Assembly: GCA_024276465.1 (NCBI GenBank)
Contig: JAJRXD010000155.1
Coordinates: forward strand, 1-58,890
DNA: 58,890 nucleotides
Source: Deltaproteobacteria bacterium
GTDB taxonomy: Bacteria; Desulfobacterota; WTBG01; CAIYCZ01; CAIRTM01
Direction: 5' to 3'
How positions within the stretch are numbered: the first letter of the stretch is position 1; each line of letters starts with the position of its first letter. Under the pieces are notes generated by a model that had not been told where the DNA came from, did no database searches, and saw only the letters and a list, made by a program, of their open reading frames with translations. The position numbers were made by a program, and so were the translations under genes. Of this stretch, positions 436 to 10,337 are shown piece after piece.

Positions 436-2766
436 ATGAATGAACCAATGCATCGAAGGGAATTTGTGAAATTAGCTGTGAAATCTGCTGTAGCTATGGG
501 TACATACCCTGTACTTTCTTATGCTGCTGCTGAAAAATTTGCTCCAAAGGATAAAGAGGTTGAAAAATATGTAACTGGTTGTATGTGGTGTCAGAACGGC
601 TGTAGCATGATTGTTCACATAAAACATGGAAAAGCTGTGCATATAACAGGTAATCCTGATGATCCTGTGACTAAAGGAAGGATATGTGTTAAGCCTTTTG
701 GCAGTCTCGAACTGATTAACAGCCCTTACAGGCTTACCCATCCCCTTAAACGAGTAAGTTTCCGCGGAACTGGTGCTGAATTTTCTAAAATAAGCTGGGA
801 AGAAGCCCTGGATGAAATTGCAGGAAAACTAAAAGATATTCAAAAGCGCTATGGAGGTGAAGCCCTTGGTATCTGGGCTTCAGGACGAAGCGCTTCTGAC
901 GGCCGGAAGCTCAACAGGGCTTTTGCAAAACTTTATGGCACCCCTAACTATGAAAAAACAGGACCGTTTTGCAACTACGCAGGCAAACCCGCTGGAATTT
1001 CAGTAGTAGGAACGCGGCATACTCCATGGACTTACAGTGATGATGATTTCTATGCTGCAAACCTTTATATCTTCATCGGGAGCAATTTTGCAGAAACGCG
1101 TCCTGTTGCCTTTTCTCATCTGAAAGAGAATAAAAACAATGACAAATGCAAGTTTATAGTAATTGATCCTCGAAAAATAAAAACAGCAAAAAAAGCAGAT
1201 CTGTGGCTTCCAATAAAGCCAGGTACTGACCTTGCTTTAGCTCTTTCATTGATTCACTATATTATTGCCCATAACCTTATAAATAAAAGATTTGTAGAAC
1301 AGTATACCCTTGGTTTTGAACACCTCAGGTCAGAAATTCTAAAAGGCGATTATAATCTTGAATGGGGTGCTAAAACAACCGGGCTTGCAGAAAAGGATAT
1401 AAAGTATTTGGCTGAAACTTATGCACATACTAAAAAAGCTATTATGATAGGCAATGCAGGCTTGAGCCATCATACCAACGCTGTACAAACCCACCGGGCT
1501 TTTTACTTTCTTGCTGCTATAACAGGTCATTTTGGGGAAAAGGCCATGGGCTATTGTTGCCTGAATAATGGTGGCATTTCAACCGGCAGCCTTGCTCTGC
1601 CTAAGGAAAAAATTCCCAAAACAAAAATGGAACTGAGCAAAAATCCTGTGGGCTGGATGGAATCCATAGAAAGCCATGTTTATCCCTATAAACTGCGTGC
1701 CCTTATCTCAACCGGCAGTCCCATGACCCAATGGCCGGATCAGTCCAGGCTTCGCGGGCTTATGGACAAACTTGCGCTCAGCGTATATAACGGACTTACT
1801 AAAAATATAAGTGCCTGTTACTTTGATTATATCCTTCCTGCTGCTACCTGGATTGAGGCGGGGGGGCTTGCCCCGGTATCCGATGACAGCAGGTTTGTAT
1901 GGGTGCCAAAGCTCATTGATCCTCCTGGAATGGCCAAACCTGACAGATGGTGGTGGGTTGAACTTGGGAAACTGATGGGGTGGGGAGATATTTTTTCTGA
2001 TAGTCTTAAAGACCCTGCATTGTTTCAAAATATTGCAGGGGGTAAAAAAGGATACAAAGTTAAACACTTTACAGCAAAAAAAGATAATTCTTTAAGAGCT
2101 CCTGTCAAAATAGTAAATGGCACAATTAAGGAACGGGACACCCTCTTTTTAAATAAACAATTTGCCACTAAAAGCAGAAAGATTGAGCTTTGGACACGGG
2201 AGCTACAGGACAGATTTACATCTTATGGTCTGAGTGTTATTCCTCAATTTTATACTGATCCGGATATAGCTTCAAGTGAACAAACTACCATAACTTATGA
2301 CAGAAGCAAAATGATTCCATCTGTTTTTCAGAAGAACAGGACATGGACTTTCAAAGTTTCTCTTGTCACCAAAAGCCAATCAGAAAACAACTTTCCCTTC
2401 TATCTTATTACTGGACGGCCCTCAAGAGCAATTATGGGTCATACTTCTCACTGGATTAGAAAGCTGAATGAAGTCACTCCTGACCAGTTTTGTATTATTA
2501 ATATGGAGACAGCAAAAATTCTTGGTGTAAAGAGTAGTGAACGGATAAAAGTAAAGTCCCCATATGGAGAGACTCAGGCTGTGGCTTATGTAACGAATTC
2601 TATTCGTAAAGATACTATCTTTATACCTTATTCCTATGGAGAAAAAAGTCCATTTACTTCCTGGAAATCGGTAAATTTTTTAACCAGTATGAGAGCCATC
2701 TGTCCTGTTTCCGGGCAGATTGCCTTTAAAGGAATCATGGCAACTATTGAAAAATTATTGCTTTAG
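436..2766 (+). CDS. Tat-exported molybdopterin oxidoreductase (DMSO reductase family catalytic subunit)
   Basis: This 776-residue protein belongs to the Mo/W-bisPGD (DMSO reductase) family. The N-terminus has a Tat-like segment (R7-R8-E-F, then a weakly hydrophobic stretch to about residue 32). A [4Fe-4S] motif follows at C49, C52, C56 and C84 with the usual Lys at 86. C179 in a PFCN context after the conserved YGTPN is the probable metal ligand, as in the thiosulfate/polysulfide reductase, arsenate reductase and acetylene hydratase branches. A molydopterin-dinucleotide-binding C-terminal domain spans about residues 640-770. The ATG at 436 follows AAAGGGGAC with good spacing. No partner FeS or membrane subunit adjoins it, which is unusual for a respiratory enzyme; the NapH-like gene at 7174 could be the electron partner (inference). 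Substrate cannot be assigned from sequence alone. Porins of two families lie on either side. Confidence 0.9.
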   Translation: MNEPMHRREFVKLAVKSAVAMGTYPVLSYAAAEKFAPKDKEVEKYVTGCMWCQNGCSMIVHIKHGKAVHITGNPDDPVTKGRICVKPFGSLELINSPYRLTHPLKRVSFRGTGAEFSKISWEEALDEIAGKLKDIQKRYGGEALGIWASGRSASDGRKLNRAFAKLYGTPNYEKTGPFCNYAGKPAGISVVGTRHTPWTYSDDDFYAANLYIFIGSNFAETRPVAFSHLKENKNNDKCKFIVIDPRKIKTAKKADLWLPIKPGTDLALALSLIHYIIAHNLINKRFVEQYTLGFEHLRSEILKGDYNLEWGAKTTGLAEKDIKYLAETYAHTKKAIMIGNAGLSHHTNAVQTHRAFYFLAAITGHFGEKAMGYCCLNNGGISTGSLALPKEKIPKTKMELSKNPVGWMESIESHVYPYKLRALISTGSPMTQWPDQSRLRGLMDKLALSVYNGLTKNISACYFDYILPAATWIEAGGLAPVSDDSRFVWVPKLIDPPGMAKPDRWWWVELGKLMGWGDIFSDSLKDPALFQNIAGGKKGYKVKHFTAKKDNSLRAPVKIVNGTIKERDTLFLNKQFATKSRKIELWTRELQDRFTSYGLSVIPQFYTDPDIASSEQTTITYDRSKMIPSVFQKNRTWTFKVSLVTKSQSENNFPFYLITGRPSRAIMGHTSHWIRKLNEVTPDQFCIINMETAKILGVKSSERIKVKSPYGETQAVAYVTNSIRKDTIFIPYSYGEKSPFTSWKSVNFLTSMRAICPVSGQIAFKGIMATIEKLLL

Positions 2767-2808
2767 CATGATGAGGTTTTTAGTGCTTTTAAGCACATCA
2801 TTTTAAAC

Positions 2809-2851
2809 CAGGGCCTGCGTCCCGGCAGAAATGGCCGGGGTGCAGGCCCTG
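2809..2851. terminator. GC-rich hairpin after the molybdoenzyme gene
   Basis: Arms of 10 bases (CAGGGCCTGC at 2809-2818 and GCAGGCCCTG at 2842-2851) enclose a second 6-bp stem (CCCGGC at 2821-2826 with GCCGGG at 2834-2839). It begins 43 bases after the stop of the oxidoreductase. There is no long T run, so this is a strong hairpin and a likely but not classical terminator. Confidence 0.6.
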
Positions 2852-2855
2852 CAAA

Positions 2856-3056
2856 TAAATCAAAAGGCTTGTCGAATATTGCAGCTGCCCCTAATTGTTC
2901 GGCCAGCACATGGGTTTTGGCATCTCCGAAAGCGGTAATCAGGACCATGGGTGGAAAGCCTTTGATGCCTCCCAAGTCCCGCAGAACTTCTATCCCGCTT
3001 GGTCCGGGCATGCGTATATCTGAAACAATGATGTCGATGAACTCTGGCTTGTGACA
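2856..3056 (-). pseudogene. Remnant of a response-regulator receiver domain
   Basis: Read on the minus strand, the frame gives ...EFIDIIVSDIRMPGPSG, then VLITAFGD and FDKPFDL. These are the phospho-acceptor Asp region (VSDIRMPG), the beta-4 segment and the conserved Lys-Pro of a CheY-like receiver. The part before the acceptor Asp and any output domain are missing. The frame runs into the hairpin at 2809-2851 instead of a normal domain end. It is joined in a different frame to a sensor-kinase N-terminus (3057-3421), so it is a degraded two-component system. Confidence 0.75.
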
Positions 3057-3421
3057 GGGCAGCAGTTGGCCTTCATTGTGAACGAAACGTCTTTGCCCCT
3101 GATGACCTGGTTAAGCATTGTTAAGGGAGCTTGAGGCAAATAAGGGGCAGTAGCTGAATTGTCCAGCCAAACCCAACGGATCTTAATCGAATGTTCTTTT
3201 CTGTTGGCATTATTAATTAGCGCGATCGTCTTGTTTTCGCCCGATTGCTTCCAGGTATGTTCAACCATGCCCGACAGTGCATGCCCTAAAAGAAGGAGAT
3301 CCGTTTTCATGTCATGATTAAAAGTTTTGACTTCCTGGTCAATACTGAGGTATCCATCAATTCCCAATATAACGACCAGCATAACAACGATTGAAAGATA
3401 TATTTTAAGATAAAGCCTCAT
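3057..3421 (-). pseudogene. Remnant of a sensor histidine kinase N-terminus
   Basis: An ATG at 3421 follows AGAGGAAAGGG with workable spacing. It opens MRLYLKIYLSIVVMLVVIL, a typical first membrane segment of a sensor kinase, then continues with a soluble sensor-like stretch up to about GKDVSF. Near 3085-3095 the frame that would continue a plausible sensor sequence (VHNEGQLL) is shifted relative to the upstream frame. A few codons later the sequence becomes the receiver domain. HAMP, HisKA and HATPase regions are absent. An internal deletion plus a frameshift is the simplest explanation. Confidence 0.65.
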
Positions 3422-3508
3422 CAAAATGCCCTTTCCTCTGCCAGGATAAGCTGTGTGGTTAACATACTTAAGGATAGTTGCAGTGTCAAACGCTTTTCCA
3501 TGTTTAAA

Positions 3509-3565
3509 CCGAATGGCATCCAGCAGCAAATTGATATCCGTGGGATAAAGCACACTGGTTTCCAC
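3509..3565 (-). pseudogene. Short transposase-like fragment
   Basis: The minus-strand frame contains METSVLYPTDINLLLDAIR, which resembles a segment common in ISNCY/IS5-like transposases (a YPTDINLL-type motif). Only about 19 residues are recognisable; both sides are unrelated. Upstream on the same strand a lipobox-like stretch (FALTACS) occurs in another frame, so several gene scraps meet here. The assignment rests on remembered motif similarity only. Confidence 0.4.
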
Positions 3566-3679
3566 TACAAAACGGGGTTGCCGAAGCAGGAAGCACCACA
3601 GCAGTGGAACAGGCTGTCAAGGCAAACAGGAACACTGTTACTGCTATGTGAATCTTTCCCTGGTTTTCTGTCCAAACAA

Positions 3680-3838
3680 AATTGATGGCTTCGTAAAAAG
3701 TCCAACTTCGGCGTTGCGCGGCATCCTTCGTCATTCCGACGTACAGTAAGTACGCCTCATTCCTCAGGATTTGCGCGCCTTGAATTTGAAGCTTTTTACT
3801 TTGCCATCGAATTTTCACTTTTTACGACTTTATCAAAA
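3680..3838. repeat. MITE-like element with terminal inverted repeats
   Basis: The left end TTGATGGCTTCGTAAAAAGT (3682-3701) is matched by the inverse of the right end, ACTTTTTACGACTTTATCAA (3817-3836), with four mismatches. About 115 bases lie between. The interior has the CGTCATTCCGACGTACAGTA / TAAGTACGCCTCATTCC type sequence that recurs in many delta-proteobacterial genomes as a dispersed non-coding repeat. It carries no transposase. It lies between the two-component remnant and the porin gene, consistent with a rearranged region. Confidence 0.65.
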
Positions 3839-3892
3839 TTAACATTCCATTTTGTCATGGTCTCATAGTTATTGATAATTTCAATTAATAGT

Positions 3893-3916
3893 ATTGATAA
3901 TATTGATATTATCAAT
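3893..3916. promoter_or_regulatory. AT-rich palindrome upstream of the porin-radical SAM operon
   Basis: ATTGATAAT and ATTATCAAT are 9-base arms around a 6-base centre (3893-3916), and a further ATTGATAATTTCAAT half-copy lies at 3871-3885. The block sits about 80 bases before the porin start. It could be a regulator-binding or promoter region for the 3996-8026 gene group. No protein partner can be named. Confidence 0.35.
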
Positions 3917-3995
3917 TTGATAAATAAATACTGTGTGTGGTTATATTTTCCCTGGAAAGGAGATGGCCACATAACATGTTTTTAATAAGGCTGAA

Positions 3996-5474
3996 ATGAA
4001 AGTTCTGAAAATAATTTTCAATCTCGCAGTAGTGCTGTTTATGCTGTTATCCCCCCTGTCAGCAAAGGTTGTAATATTTCAAAGCGGGGATGATCTGAAA
4101 ATATGGCTGTCCGGAGAACTGACAGCACGCTATGAAGGCTGGAACTGGTTTGATCCTGCTGACAAAAACAATACAAATAATAACTATGGGTACTATTTCA
4201 CAAGAAGCCGTCTGGGAATTGGATGTGAAACAGACAGGCTGGATGTTTTTGTTCAGGCACAGCATACCCGGATGTGGAACCTGCCATACAACTCCATTGC
4301 ACAGGCACCAGAAGGCACTCTTGGCATTGGTGCCATCTATTATGCCCACCGCGGCAAAGAAAATTATTATAATATATTTATAAAACAGGGTTTTATCCGC
4401 TTTAAAAATTTTCTGCAAACCGGTATCAGCCTTAAAGCAGGCAGGTTTGAATACATTGATGCTATGGAAGTTGAATATAATAACCCCAAAGTTATGTGGC
4501 TGAAGAAAATCCGGCTTGCCGAGCGCCTGATAGGCCCCTTTGGCTGGTCAGCATTTACCCGGAGCTTTGATGGCGTTGAACTGGTTCTGGACAAAACAAA
4601 ATATAATATTACTGCCATGGCCTCTTACCCCACACAGGGTGGTTTTGAAAATGATGTACAGCACCAGATGGATGATATTACTCTGGTTTCAGCAACTCTG
4701 ACCGTAAAGTACAACCAGCTGATTCCCCATACAGAGAGCCGCCTTTTTTACTTTTTTTATGATGATGACAGGGATATACCCAAAGTGGACAACACACCTG
4801 CAGGTTCCGGGCTCAACAAAGGCGAAATTGAGGTCCATACACTTGGCTTTCATCTGTTGAACACACTGGACACAGGGCCTGGAGTGGCAGATTTCCTCCT
4901 GTGGGGTGTGTACCAGTTTGGTGACTGGGGAAAGCTTGAGCATAAAGCATGGGCGCTTGATGTTGAGGCAGGATTTCAGTTTATCAGGCTTCCGGCCAAA
5001 CCATGGCTGCGCATGGGCTGTTTTGTTTCCTCCGGCGATTCAAGCCCATCTGATGGGGATCATGAGACATTTTACCAGCTGATCCCCACTGCAAGAAAAT
5101 ATGCGCTTTCCCCTTTTTATAACCTTATGAATAATGAGGATTTTTTTCTGCAGTTAATCCTGAAGCCACACAAAAAATTATTAATAAGAGCTGATATGCA
5201 TTTTCTCCGCCTGAATGATTCTTCTGACATGTGGTATATGGGGGCTGGGCCGACCAGAGAATCAGGCAAAATTTTTGGCTACATTGGGCGTCCATCTTTT
5301 GGCAGTGCTGACCTTGCTGAAGTTCTGGATATTATGGTGGTCTTTACTTTTAATAAACATGTTTCTTTTAATGCCTATTACGGGCATGTGTGGGGCGATG
5401 ATGTTATTGAAAATATTTACAGGAGGGATGATGATGCAGATATGCTCTTTATTGAAATGGGGCTCAAATTCTAG
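3996..5474 (+). CDS. Alginate-export-type outer-membrane beta-barrel protein
   Basis: This 492-residue protein starts with a signal peptide (hydrophobic to about residue 22, SPLSAK cleavage region). It then shows repeated amphipathic strands rich in aromatic residues at strand ends and finishes with ...LFIEMGLKF, a C-terminal Phe typical of barrel proteins. The pattern LSGELTARYEGWNWFDP... TRSRLGIGCET near the N-terminus and FDGVELVLDKTKYNITAMASY in the middle fits the Alginate_exp (AlgE-like) barrel family. Many members of that family in anaerobes sit in respiratory loci and have nothing to do with alginate. It is the first gene of a run that overlaps the radical SAM gene by 41 bases, so the products are probably made together. 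The cargo is unknown. Confidence 0.85.
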   Translation: MKVLKIIFNLAVVLFMLLSPLSAKVVIFQSGDDLKIWLSGELTARYEGWNWFDPADKNNTNNNYGYYFTRSRLGIGCETDRLDVFVQAQHTRMWNLPYNSIAQAPEGTLGIGAIYYAHRGKENYYNIFIKQGFIRFKNFLQTGISLKAGRFEYIDAMEVEYNNPKVMWLKKIRLAERLIGPFGWSAFTRSFDGVELVLDKTKYNITAMASYPTQGGFENDVQHQMDDITLVSATLTVKYNQLIPHTESRLFYFFYDDDRDIPKVDNTPAGSGLNKGEIEVHTLGFHLLNTLDTGPGVADFLLWGVYQFGDWGKLEHKAWALDVEAGFQFIRLPAKPWLRMGCFVSSGDSSPSDGDHETFYQLIPTARKYALSPFYNLMNNEDFFLQLILKPHKKLLIRADMHFLRLNDSSDMWYMGAGPTRESGKIFGYIGRPSFGSADLAEVLDIMVVFTFNKHVSFNAYYGHVWGDDVIENIYRRDDDADMLFIEMGLKF

Positions 5475-6327
5475 TAATTTTTCCGGTCCACAGAAAAGGA
5501 AAGTCCGGCAGGACAAGATACCTTTCCATCCCTGTATGAATGAGGAGGCACACTATCTTATTCCCAGGCTGCATCTCCCGGTTGCCCCCCTGTGCAATAT
5601 TCACTGCAGGTTCTGCAACCGTAAAATATCTTCCACTGAAACAGGGACGCGCTGTCCCGGGGTGGCAAATAAAATCCTTACGCCACAGCAGGCATTGAAA
5701 AAAACAGGACAATTTTTTAAGCTGAATGGAAACTGCTCGATTGTAGGAATTGCAGGTCCGGGAGATTCCCTTGCCAACAGGGAAACTTTTCAAACCTTTA
5801 AGCTTGTAAGGGAAGCCTTTCCGGACGCTGGTTTTTGTCTGTGTACCAACGGCTTGAACCTTCCATGTTCGATAAAGATGCTCAGGGAACTGAAAGTTAA
5901 GCATTTGAGCGTGACAATAAACGGAGTGCTTCCGGAGATAGTTTCAAAAATTACTCCGTGGGTTAAGCTGAACGGACGCATTATAAAAGGGGAGGGTGGT
6001 GCGCGTATTCTTATAAAAAACCAGCTTGCCGGTATCAGTGCCGCTGTATCACATGATATGTTTGTAAAAATCAATACTGTGGTAGTTCCACGCATAAACG
6101 GTTTCCATGTCGAAAAGATTGCAGAAACAGCAAAAAGGCTTGGGGCCGGTATGTTTAATCCCATGCCGCTTATACAGGAAGGCAACTGGAAAAAGGAAGA
6201 TCTCCCTTCACAGAACTATATGACTGATTTGCAAAACAGATGTGAACTTTATCTCCCGGTATTTAAAAAGTGTTGTCAGTGCCGTGCGGATGCCGAAGGG
6301 ATTCCAGGGAAGGAGATCTGTTTATGA
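5434..6327 (+). CDS. NifB-like radical SAM protein
   Basis: Start chosen at the third of three tandem ATGs because AGGAGG (5421-5426) is 7 bases before it; this gives 297 residues. The radical SAM motif is C54-x3-C58-x2-C61 in the context APLCNIHCRFCNRK. It is preceded by HPCMNEEAH and followed near the end by CCQCRADAEGIPG. All three match signature segments of NifB, the enzyme that builds the NifB cofactor precursor of nitrogenase. The YDC segment that follows the CNRK of NifB is replaced here (ISSTETG), there is no NifX-type tail, and no nif gene is present in the window. It overlaps the next gene by 4 bases (ATGA). A role in making or handling a metallocluster for a neighbouring protein is an inference; the family match itself is strong. 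Confidence 0.85.
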   Translation: MQICSLLKWGSNSSNFSGPQKRKVRQDKIPFHPCMNEEAHYLIPRLHLPVAPLCNIHCRFCNRKISSTETGTRCPGVANKILTPQQALKKTGQFFKLNGNCSIVGIAGPGDSLANRETFQTFKLVREAFPDAGFCLCTNGLNLPCSIKMLRELKVKHLSVTINGVLPEIVSKITPWVKLNGRIIKGEGGARILIKNQLAGISAAVSHDMFVKINTVVVPRINGFHVEKIAETAKRLGAGMFNPMPLIQEGNWKKEDLPSQNYMTDLQNRCELYLPVFKKCCQCRADAEGIPGKEICL

Positions 6328-7181
6328 GCAGGGAAAATAAAAAAATCAGCCGCCGGTCGTTTATTAGGGCCTCAGGCCTTGCCATAACCGGAGCGCTTGC
6401 TGCCCCGGCAGTATCATCAGGCAGTAAGTTTAAAAATGCTTCTCTGCGGGTCTGGTCATGTGGTGGTCTGGCTGAAGCCTTTATGCCGGCCAACAGGTTT
6501 TATGAGCAGGAGACAGGCTGCACAATTGCATATACCGGTGCATTTGCCGCTGCACTTGGTAAGTCGCTCCTGGGAAAAGCCACGACAGAGGTCTTTGCAC
6601 CCCGCGTGCTTGAACTTGCCAGAAAATTGAAAGCCGTGGGGAAGATGCTTTATTTCAAACCGCTCTGTTTTACCAAATATGTGCTTGTAACACCTGCAGG
6701 CAATCCTGCGGGTATTAACAGTATCGAGGATATGGCAAGGCCGGATGTGCGGGTTGTCCTGACCCCTGGTGCCTCTCCGCCGGGTGGAGCAGCCAGTATG
6801 ATTATTCTGAAAAAAGCCGGAGTTCTGGAGGCAGCGAAAAAAAATGCTGTTTTAATGGGTGACTGTGTTCAGATGGCAATGCCTTACATCATAAACTCCA
6901 GAGGAGATGTGGCTGTTGTGGAGCTTCGCCTGACGCGTATTCCGCAGTTCAGGGGAAAAATTGATATCATGGAAATTCCTGATAAATTCATTCCCCCAAA
7001 ACCTGTTCCTTTTACAATTGGAGTAATGAAATGGGCCAAAAACAGAGAACTGGTGGAAGATTATATAAATTTTATCCTCTCGGAAAAGGGTCAGACATAT
7101 TTTGAAGAAGCAGGATTTATACCGGCCTTCTCTGAAGAGGGAAAAAAGCTTATTGAAAAGTATGGTGTCAGGGATGGCTGA
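6324..7181 (+). CDS. Tat-exported ModA-like periplasmic binding protein
   Basis: The ATG at 6324 overlaps the radical SAM stop (ATGA) and has AAGGAG 8 bases upstream, giving 285 residues. The N-terminus has a twin-arginine signal (SRRSFIRASGLAITGALAAPA). The mature part has type-2 periplasmic binding protein features: a first lobe LRVWSCGGLAEAF, hinge regions around KYVLVTPAGNP and DVRVVLTPGASPPGGAA, and a C-terminal KNRELVEDYINFILSEKGQ segment as in molybdate/tungstate-type and iron-type binding proteins. No ABC permease or ATPase follows, so it may act as a carrier or sensor and not in uptake. Tat export suggests that it folds, or binds a cofactor, in the cytoplasm first, which would fit a client of the upstream NifB-like enzyme (inference). 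Confidence 0.8.
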   Translation: MSRENKKISRRSFIRASGLAITGALAAPAVSSGSKFKNASLRVWSCGGLAEAFMPANRFYEQETGCTIAYTGAFAAALGKSLLGKATTEVFAPRVLELARKLKAVGKMLYFKPLCFTKYVLVTPAGNPAGINSIEDMARPDVRVVLTPGASPPGGAASMIILKKAGVLEAAKKNAVLMGDCVQMAMPYIINSRGDVAVVELRLTRIPQFRGKIDIMEIPDKFIPPKPVPFTIGVMKWAKNRELVEDYINFILSEKGQTYFEEAGFIPAFSEEGKKLIEKYGVRDG

Positions 7182-7917
7182 TATAAAAAAAACTCATTGG
7201 AAGAGAAGAATAACACAGCTTGTGTTTTTCGGGGTGCTGGGCAAATTTTCATTTTATGGAATATTTCGCTGTCCATTTGCTGTTCCATATGTCAGCTGCA
7301 GCAGCTGCCCGGTTGTGCAGTGTCCGGGACGCAAACTCTGGCTGTTTTTATGGGCTGGACTGGGGCTGAGTGCTATATGTTTCGGGCGGGGTTTTTGTTC
7401 CTGGGCTTGTCCGGCAGGGTTGGTTTCAGAGCTGCTGACAAAATATTCATTTTATAAGGATAGATTTAAGGGGTTTGCAGATGTTTTTCTTTCAGGCGGA
7501 AAATATATTGTTTTGACTGCGTGCATAATTCTTTTTATTTATCCCTGCAATCCGCGATGGGCTGTTCCAATACGAACGGGAGAATTCTGGAATTCTTTAA
7601 AACTCACTTTTGAACATGCTGATACTTTGTGGCTTGTCAGAACATTTTTTGTGCTGGCAGGAATTTTGCTGTCCCTTCTTCTCAGCAGTTTCTGGTGCTG
7701 TTATCTCTGCCCAACAGGTGGAATATTAGAGGCTGTAAAACGTTTTTCTGTTTTCAAGTACTTTATAACGAATAACTGCAGTGACTGTAACAAATGCCGC
7801 GAGGTTTGCTCAATTGGAAAACGTCCCGGGGAAAACAACTGCACAAACTGCGGTGATTGCCAGGATATCTGTCCGGCTGGAGCAATCACTTTAGGCAGAA
7901 AAAATAGTCCTGAATAA
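7174..7917 (+). CDS. NapH/NosR-like membrane polyferredoxin
   Basis: About 247 residues from the ATG at 7174, which overlaps the previous gene by 8 bases; an in-frame ATG at 7162 is an alternative start and neither has a strong ribosome-binding site. Four or so membrane segments are visible. Motif CFGRGFCSWACPAGLVSELL and a second CCYLCPTGGILEAV are the paired cysteine-proline motifs of the NapH/NosR/CcoG family. Two [4Fe-4S] clusters follow at the C-terminus (CSDCNKCREVC and CTNCGDCQDICP). Such proteins pass electrons between the quinone pool or cytoplasm and the periplasm. The position after a Tat-exported protein suggests electron delivery to it or to the oxidoreductase at 436 (inference). 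The stop lies only 12 bases before the tRNA gene. Confidence 0.85.
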   Translation: MADIKKTHWKRRITQLVFFGVLGKFSFYGIFRCPFAVPYVSCSSCPVVQCPGRKLWLFLWAGLGLSAICFGRGFCSWACPAGLVSELLTKYSFYKDRFKGFADVFLSGGKYIVLTACIILFIYPCNPRWAVPIRTGEFWNSLKLTFEHADTLWLVRTFFVLAGILLSLLLSSFWCCYLCPTGGILEAVKRFSVFKYFITNNCSDCNKCREVCSIGKRPGENNCTNCGDCQDICPAGAITLGRKNSPE

Positions 7918-7929
7918 TATGGGCCAATA

Positions 7930-8026
7930 GAGGGATGCGGGGCTGGCGCCCCCAGCGGGCTGCAAACCCGTTAGCCGGGTACGATTTCTGCCTGGAGTCG
8001 GGTTCGATTCCCACCATCCCTCTCCA
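7930..8026 (+). tRNA. Selenocysteine-tRNA-like tRNA with GCA (Cys) anticodon
   Basis: Folding by eye gives an 8-bp acceptor (GAGGGATG 7930-7937 with CATCCCTC 8015-8022), U73 at 8023 and an encoded CCA at 8024-8026. The D arm is a 5-bp stem (GGGGC/GCCCC) with a 4-nt loop TGGC. The anticodon stem is GCGGG/CCCGT with loop CTGCAAA, so bases 34-36 are GCA (7962-7964). A long variable arm forms (CCGGG 7975-7979 with CCTGG 7991-7995 around a 7-nt loop after two further pairs). The T loop is TTCGATT with stem GGG/CCC plus GT/AC if C7999 is bulged. The 97-nt length, 8-bp acceptor, small D loop and long variable arm are those of bacterial tRNA-Sec, whose loop would be CTTCAAA. One change (U34 to G34) would give this anticodon. 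U73 is a cysteinyl-tRNA synthetase identity base, whereas tRNA-Sec normally has G73. It may be co-transcribed with the upstream polyferredoxin gene. Confidence 0.8.
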
Positions 8027-8348: not shown

Positions 8349-8723
8349 TCAGAAGGTCATCAAGACCGGCAAACGGCTTGAAGACCGAAGATGACGCTGC
8401 GGGTTTGTCACCGGCCGGGGAGTCGGCATACCACTCTGCGTCGAAATCTCTCTCGCGTGCTCATCCTCGTGGCAATACATGCACAGCAGTTCCCAGTTGC
8501 TCCCATCCGGCGGGTTGTTTTCATGGTTGTGATCTTTGTGGTGAACCGTAAGCTCCAACAGCTTTTTGCCCTCAAACTCACGGCTGCACCGTGCGCATGC
8601 GTGGGGCAAAATGCTAAGTGCTCTATCGCGGTAGCCTTTCTGCCGCTCCATCCGTTCGCGGCGGATCTCTTCATAGAACCGCTTTATCTTTTCGTCATCG
8701 GCGAGGGGCTTTTTCGGAGGCAT
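8349..8723 (-). CDS. YajD-like HNH nuclease
   Basis: This 124-residue protein has a basic helical N-terminus (EEIRRERMERQKGYRDRA) and then an HNH module. A zinc-type pair C43-x2-C46, the core HH (61-62) in LTVHHKDHNHENN, then WELLCMYCHEDEH with C81-x2-C84 and H89 are all present. This arrangement matches the small YajD family of HNH proteins, of unknown biological role in most bacteria. All expected metal-binding residues are present, so it could be active on DNA. The last 30 residues are Pro/Arg-rich and not conserved. It stands alone, reading towards the tRNA gene. Confidence 0.8.
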   Translation of the reverse strand: MPPKKPLADDEKIKRFYEEIRRERMERQKGYRDRALSILPHACARCSREFEGKKLLELTVHHKDHNHENNPPDGSNWELLCMYCHEDEHAREISTQSGMPTPRPVTNPQRHLRSSSRLPVLMTF

Positions 8724-9131: not shown

Positions 9132-10337
9132 CTATCCGAATAGCCTGTTGGCTGACATCCTGTATGCATTTTTTTTCTGCATTGACATGATATCAGGCTC
9201 AAAGCAGACCTGAACAAAAGGGATGCCTTTCAGGACATTTATCGTGTCAAAATGGTGGCGATCAATAGAGCTATCCTTAAGTTTTGCCTCTATTAGAAGC
9301 CATGGTGATGCATTCCTAACAACAAGGAAATCGGTTTCCTGCTTTTGCTTGTTTCGAATATAGCACAGAAAAAAGTCATCTCCTGTCTCTTCTCCCCAAA
9401 GGCTCAGCCTTGCATTAAGTTCACAGGCCACATAATTTTCAAACTGTGCGCCTCTGTCTTTAATTTTTGACCAGTCATAGAGGTAATATTTCCCTGTTTT
9501 TAAAAGTGAGCGCTTTATGTTTTTTGAGTATGGCCTTATTGAAAAAACAAGATAAAAATCCTCAAGCCGCCGGAGATAGTTTTTTACGGTTGCGGGGCTG
9601 ACCTGAAGGTGGGAAGCAAGGGATGAATTAGAGGTCGGGCTTCCAATCATCTCAGGCAGAAGGTTATACAAATCAAAAAGATATTCTCTGTCAATAATTC
9701 TTGTTAAAGAACCTATGTCCTCATGGATGACCGTGTCAGCATAATCCCTTGACCATTTGTTATGAAATGCCTGTGACTGCTGTAAAAAAGGTTCAGGGAA
9801 TCCGCTGTATTTTAAAAGCTGGTTAAGTGTTTCCTGGGAAGCGGGGCGAGAGTCTATTGCATAATGAATAAAATCATATGCATTATTAAAAACAGTATTT
9901 TTTAAAGAATTTACCTCGTTCAGTGTGAGGGGCATCAGATGAAAAGTAAAGTAACGGCCTGCGAGACTGTCTCCAGCGTGTCTTAAAATATTAAGTTTTG
10001 CCGATCCTGTTACAATAAAATTATATCGATCAGAGGTTTCATCAAAGGCAGCTTTAAGTATGTTTTTCCATTTAGGCATTTTGTGGATTTCATCAAAACA
10101 AACCCATAATTTTTTTTCAGTTTTTATTCCGTCAGATGTGAAAAAAAGCTCATTCTCCTTATACCTTTGCCGGACATTGCGAAGATCCCAGAGATAATAT
10201 AGTTTATCCGATTTTTCAGCCTGAAGTTTCCGGCGGGCGAGAGTGGTTTTGCCAACTTGCCGGGGGCCGGTTATAAACCGCATCTGGCGTCCCCAGCGCT
10301 CTGAAAATGAAATATCATAAAGGTTTCTTTTTATCAT
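9132..10337 (-). CDS. AAA+ ATPase with DUF4143 domain
   Basis: This 401-residue protein begins with a P-loop domain: Walker A GPRQVGKTT (residues 24-32) and a Walker B-like LWVCFDEIHKM. A sensor-like FIVTGSAKLNILR follows. The C-terminal half has the DUF4143 features: a winged-helix-like SSLASHLQVSPATVKNYLRRLEDF and a nuclease-like end (ETDFLVVRNASPWLLIEAKL) with the D...E-x-K pattern of the PD-(D/E)xK fold. Members are widespread in environmental anaerobes and often lie in variable regions, with unknown biological role. The gene is followed by the LRR remnant and has its own AT-rich upstream region. Confidence 0.85.
   Translation of the reverse strand: MIKRNLYDISFSERWGRQMRFITGPRQVGKTTLARRKLQAEKSDKLYYLWDLRNVRQRYKENELFFTSDGIKTEKKLWVCFDEIHKMPKWKNILKAAFDETSDRYNFIVTGSAKLNILRHAGDSLAGRYFTFHLMPLTLNEVNSLKNTVFNNAYDFIHYAIDSRPASQETLNQLLKYSGFPEPFLQQSQAFHNKWSRDYADTVIHEDIGSLTRIIDREYLFDLYNLLPEMIGSPTSNSSLASHLQVSPATVKNYLRRLEDFYLVFSIRPYSKNIKRSLLKTGKYYLYDWSKIKDRGAQFENYVACELNARLSLWGEETGDDFFLCYIRNKQKQETDFLVVRNASPWLLIEAKLKDSSIDRHHFDTINVLKGIPFVQVCFEPDIMSMQKKNAYRMSANRLFG

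Follow-up and report, generated by a model that had tools for sequence, protein, structure and literature searches.

An accessory tRNA-Cys of tRNA-Sec-like build behind a NapH-like gene, and the selenium and formate dehydrogenase neighbourhoods of its relatives in the Desulfobacterota

Described systems closest to the locus

The nearest described counterparts of the tRNA gene studied here are the selC* tRNA-Cys species of anaerobic bacteria (Mukai et al., 2017), which, according to passages of a review (PMC7609411), have a tRNA-Sec-like build, U73 and the anticodon GCA or UCA. The same passages describe a modified 8/4 acceptor/T arm with a bulged, unpaired A51a, and place selB* downstream of selC* in some orders only and cysS* in one. 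Anticodon GCA and U73 are identity elements for CysRS (PMC7609411), and tRNA-Sec function needs G73 (PMC5330540). Genes for YedE, YedF, DUF3343 and 2-hydroxyglutaryl-CoA dehydratase-type proteins have been proposed as neighbours with a part in selenium use in passages of PMC5322559; the searched passages of that paper do not name the ModA/NapH/NifB-like gene set (hereafter the module) that precedes our tRNA gene. The window is the whole 58,890-nucleotide (58.9 kb) stretch of contig JAJRXD010000155.1 that was analysed, and all positions refer to it.

Structure and identity of the tRNA

ARAGORN places a tRNA-Cys(GCA) of tRNA-Sec-like build at 7930-8026 on the + strand. Read by eye, its stems comprise an acceptor of eight pairs (GAGGGATG/CATCCCTC), a 5-bp D stem, a 6-bp anticodon stem, a 7-bp variable arm and a T stem of five pairs with one bulged C. 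The first pair is G1:C72, the 3' end carries U73 and an encoded CCA, the T loop and anticodon loop are of the invariant kind, and every stem is intact. The tRNA had been called unusual from its letters, a description borne out by its match to the Rfam tRNA-Sec model (RF01852; 49.4 bits, gathering score 47), the margin of which is thin because other tRNAs of the same genome reach 46.6 bits. Judged from sequence and predicted fold, the gene is genuine and encodes an accessory tRNA-Cys of intact structure, the body of which resembles tRNA-Sec. That the gene is a silent relic no longer in use would agree with its sole occurrence in the class and with the lack of a linked selB*, but the intact stems with all eight acceptor pairs, the encoded CCA and the invariant loops make this highly improbable.

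The tRNA shares with tRNA-Sec the 8-bp acceptor, the 5-bp T stem, the long variable arm and a short D loop; it differs in having U at position 73 where tRNA-Sec has G73, and GCA in place of UCA. The same genome also carries an ordinary tRNA-Cys and a separate, ordinary tRNA-Sec(UCA) with G73. Species of tRNA-Sec that read sense codons are on record (Mukai 2016, cited in passages of PMC7609411), and, with the Rfam match above the gathering score, one could suppose that the gene encodes a tRNA-Sec decoding Cys codons and placing selenocysteine at UGC/UGU. The discriminator U, the CysRS identity conferred by GCA and U73, and the presence of a normal tRNA-Sec all speak against this reading, to which we give very little credence. 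Above cut-off, the whole genome holds one SelB and one CysRS. From U73, GCA and G1:C72, this only CysRS would be expected to charge the tRNA, and the 8-bp acceptor would favour the single SelB over EF-Tu as its carrier, so that in special contexts the tRNA would place Cys at UGC/UGU.

Relatives were sought with a sequence pattern and a covariance model, since DNA BLAST of the tRNA within its class returned no match beyond itself. The pattern (GCA anticodon plus long variable arm) yielded about 20 genes in 395 Desulfobacterota genomes and missed genes lacking an encoded CCA, such as that of genome G386. The covariance model of long-variable-arm tRNA-Cys(GCA) was built from 15 sequences, and the alignment kept double changes at 15 of its 28 consensus pairs. 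Against this model the window tRNA scores 84.2 bits, a value inflated because it is one of the 15 sequences, compared with 46.2 bits for the genome's own tRNA-Sec. The nearest selC*-type example found (G077) is 78% identical to it.

Like selC*, the window tRNA combines U73 with GCA and has a long acceptor, anticodon stem and variable arm. Unlike selC*, with its 8/4 arm and bulged A51a, it has an 8/5 arm and a bulged C, with 13 rather than 12 bases between the T loop and position 73, and no selB* was found within 3.5 kb downstream. Because the 8/4 arm with A51a is absent, we file it as a variant of selC* and not as a member, its Cys identity and tRNA-Sec-like build notwithstanding. The two arm types differ in their neighbours: SelB is encoded within 3.5 kb downstream at 18 of 20 loci with 12 bases (8/4) and at none of nine with 13 bases (8/5), the window included (29 scorable GCA-type loci; p 5e-6, uncorrected for relatedness, with five of the nine 8/5 loci belonging to one family). 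The loci in this comparison are L125-L144, L241-L260 and L193.

Organisation and transcription of the locus

The tRNA closes a co-directional run on the + strand (3996-8026) that consists of an outer-membrane porin of the Alginate_exp family (3996-5474), a short NifB-like radical SAM protein of 263 aa (5536-6327; PF04055; TIGR01290 237 bits, below the cut-off of 344), a ModA-like solute-binding protein of 285 aa (6324-7181) and a NapH-like membrane polyferredoxin of 247 aa with 20 Cys (7174-7917). The end of the ModA-like ORF overlaps the NapH-like start by 8 bases. The product of 6324-7181, labelled a Tat-binding protein in the original prediction, is better described as a ModA-type solute-binding protein (PF13531, 148.9 bits; TIGR01256, 34 bits, below cut-off) that bears a Tat-like signal. 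The NapH-like protein resembles NapH/MauN (TIGR02163) in its Fer4_5 repeats, CxxxCP motifs and C-terminal 4Fe-4S motif, but reaches 44.3 bits against a cut-off of 213.05, and its gene accompanies those for the ModA-like and NifB-like proteins instead of belonging to a nap operon; the protein is thus NapH-like only.

At 436-2766 on the + strand, 1.2 kb upstream of the porin run, lies a gene for a molybdopterin oxidoreductase of the Fdh-alpha/PhsA type, with TGC as its active-site Cys codon. The gap between this gene and the porin holds, on the minus strand at 2763-3818, short ORFs that resemble fragments of a disrupted gene for a sensor kinase/response regulator. Beyond the tRNA, convergent genes at 8349-8723 and 9132-10337 encode an HNH endonuclease and an AAA_14/DUF4143 ATPase, types frequent on mobile DNA. 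Insertion of a mobile element at the tRNA was considered and rejected, as no stretch of 14 or more tRNA bases is repeated elsewhere in the window.

ORF call and ARAGORN agree with the coordinates first given for the junction: the NapH-like gene stops with TAA at 7915-7917 and the tRNA starts at 7930, leaving a 12-base spacer (TATGGGCCAATA) between two genes on the + strand. Such spacing is uncommon in this genome and not unique to this site, since three of the 34 other tRNA genes examined there have a same-strand ORF (called mechanically) of at least 100 aa ending at most 50 bases upstream. Simple scans, which are weak evidence, found no promoter-like site on the + strand from 6988 to the tRNA and no terminator-like site between the NapH-like gene and the tRNA. 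Given the shared strand, the 12-base spacer and the lack of either kind of site in between, co-transcription of the napH-like gene and the tRNA is plausible. The candidate promoter region is at 3852-3932 (+ strand), 5' of the porin, where four overlapping sigma-70-like sites occur, a count near chance for the scan. The tRNA would then be matured by processing of read-through from a porin/nifB-like/modA-like/napH-like transcript.

A tRNA placed in this way could be dedicated to its operon, kept there as a supplier of Cys or a sensor of Cys charging on behalf of the NapH-like and NifB-like proteins, both rich in Cys. Their Cys contents (8.1% and 4.9%, respectively) do exceed those of the further window genes that were sampled, and the common strand and short spacer are as such a role would have them. 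However, the genome already has an ordinary tRNA-Cys, and an Rfam search found neither a T-box nor any other regulatory RNA, so the proposed role as a sensor of Cys charging is unsupported. The comparison with other genomes, given next, weighs further against dedicated service.

Conservation of the module and of the tRNA

A protein scan of genome contigs gave two close module loci only, and a wider genome search was then used. In 296 other Desulfobacterota genomes we found ten close orthologues of the NapH-like protein; for the ModA-like protein, 14 of 394 other genomes have an orthologue. Across loci the module genes stay together, often in the order ModA, NapH, NifB-like. The ModA-like/NapH-like pair occurs in about 4% of the sampled Desulfobacterota genomes, usually with the short NifB-like gene and sometimes with the porin, and is often near selenium, formate-dehydrogenase or nif/mod genes (window 5536-7917; L160-L172, L092, L051). 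At the Solidesulfovibrio locus (L051) it adjoins, as judged by eye, molybdate-transporter and nifB/nifE/nifN-like genes.

The tRNA does not follow the module. At the 15 other module loci (14 genomes plus L051), napH is never followed directly by a tRNA-Cys. In the nearest relative (G133, a member of the same family with about 58% identity in NapH), the porin, NifB-like, ModA-like and NapH-like genes stand in the same order, and no tRNA or remnant was found behind napH, even with filters off. Scoring with the covariance model found no such tRNA in the 16 other genomes of the class, and nearly all other tRNA-Cys genes of the tRNA-Sec-like kind are located away from the ModA/NapH module. From these comparisons, the 12-base adjacency is an arrangement of one genome, and the tRNA has no fixed napH partner. 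The synteny with nifB-like, ModA-like and napH-like genes on which the idea of a dedicated tRNA depended thus failed to appear, in the nearest relative as elsewhere. Because direct pairing with napH is not conserved, dedicated service to the operon is unsupported; we reject it as the main reading and regard it as very unlikely.

Direct juxtaposition in a single genome and the absence of the tRNA from the rest of the class would also be expected of a chance neighbour, that is, a tRNA that ordinary rearrangement or transfer brought to its place after napH and that is unlinked to the module. Co-occurrence of the module with a selC*-type tRNA per genome is likewise weak (4/15 versus 39/380, p 0.07). 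Against mere chance stand the surroundings of the module elsewhere, which make this explanation an unlikely one, if still one to be taken seriously.

Selenium and formate dehydrogenase neighbourhoods

Selenium-linked genes lie near seven of the 15 module loci and near two of 36 control stretches (p 0.0014), from a gene list that was picked after seeing the G133 and selC* loci and in genomes that are related. The markers were SelD, YedF, YedE, DUF3343, the HgdB/HgdC type (not exclusive to selenium), tRNA-Sec and selC*-selB*, scored over about 17 kb per locus, and the controls came from the same genomes and had about equal mean length. Leaving out the tRNA-Sec marker and G133, a source of queries, the counts are 5/14 and 0/36. 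Homologues of YedE, YedF, DUF3343, SelD or HgdB/HgdC are also found at many selC*-type tRNA loci. Set beside the neighbourhoods described in passages of PMC5322559, the module is alike in that such homologues lie near 5/15 loci, with two more having tRNA-Sec or selC*-selB*; the window itself is unlike them, as the tRNA is the only selenium gene found in its 58.9 kb.

The closest association is in G386, where one co-directional run holds genes for a porin, ModA, NapH, HdrA-like proteins (assigned by eye), a glutamate-synthase-like subunit and FdhA, then the selC* tRNA and SelB*. Here the tRNA sits 17 bases behind fdhA, not napH, at a distance of 8.3 kb from the module. In G249, of the same genus, porin/ModA/NapH and fdhA/selC* are on two contigs, and no SelB was found in the 1.8 kb behind the selC* tRNA. 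G029 is not a module genome; with the module absent and fdhA just upstream of the selC* tRNA, the tight partner of the tRNA there is fdhA. In all three genomes the fdhA just 5' of the selC* tRNA has UGC at the usual selenocysteine position (L168:16788-19591, L241, L243). After the active-site Cys codon, no convincing SECIS-like hairpin was found in these UGC-type fdhA genes or in the window molybdoenzyme.

Two further module loci lie near selenocysteine-related features. In G335, the module is 2.9 kb upstream of an fdhA that contains an in-frame UGA and, after it, a strong hairpin (L161:11641-13701); this fdhA, which is outside the 7/15 count, likely encodes a selenoprotein. The ModA-like gene of G214 is preceded on its own strand, at a distance of about 550 bases, by an ordinary tRNA-Sec(UCA) (L166:11036-11130).

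These comparisons support the view that the module and the tRNA-Sec-like tRNA-Cys genes share selenium/formate-dehydrogenase neighbourhoods, and the link between module and tRNA may not be pure chance. What survives of the original prediction of a tRNA-operon link is this looser association, seen in the 7/15 versus 2/36 counts and the co-directional run of G386, whereas the dedicated pairing does not. The reading we favour, with somewhat better than even confidence, is an intact accessory tRNA-Cys, probably made by read-through, that has no fixed napH partner and shares with the module a selenium/formate-dehydrogenase neighbourhood. Both would recur in such neighbourhoods of the Desulfobacterota and would have become adjacent in this lineage.

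Significance

The tRNA-Cys genes of tRNA-Sec shape pose a puzzle, in that they seem built for SelB yet decode ordinary Cys codons. A bolder proposal, which we hold to be doubtful, is that the 8/5 tRNA-Cys(GCA) genes form a separate class that would borrow the ordinary SelB for Cys insertion at Cys codons of Mo/W- and selenium-linked redox enzymes, and that the ModA/NapH/NifB-like module would be a new component of this selenium/formate-dehydrogenase system. The contrast between the 8/4 type, which nearly always has its own selB, and the 8/5 type, which never does among the loci compared here, offers a direct test of the need for SelB. The analysis also flags the small ModA/NapH/NifB-like gene set, the loci of which have selenium genes nearby more often than control stretches do.
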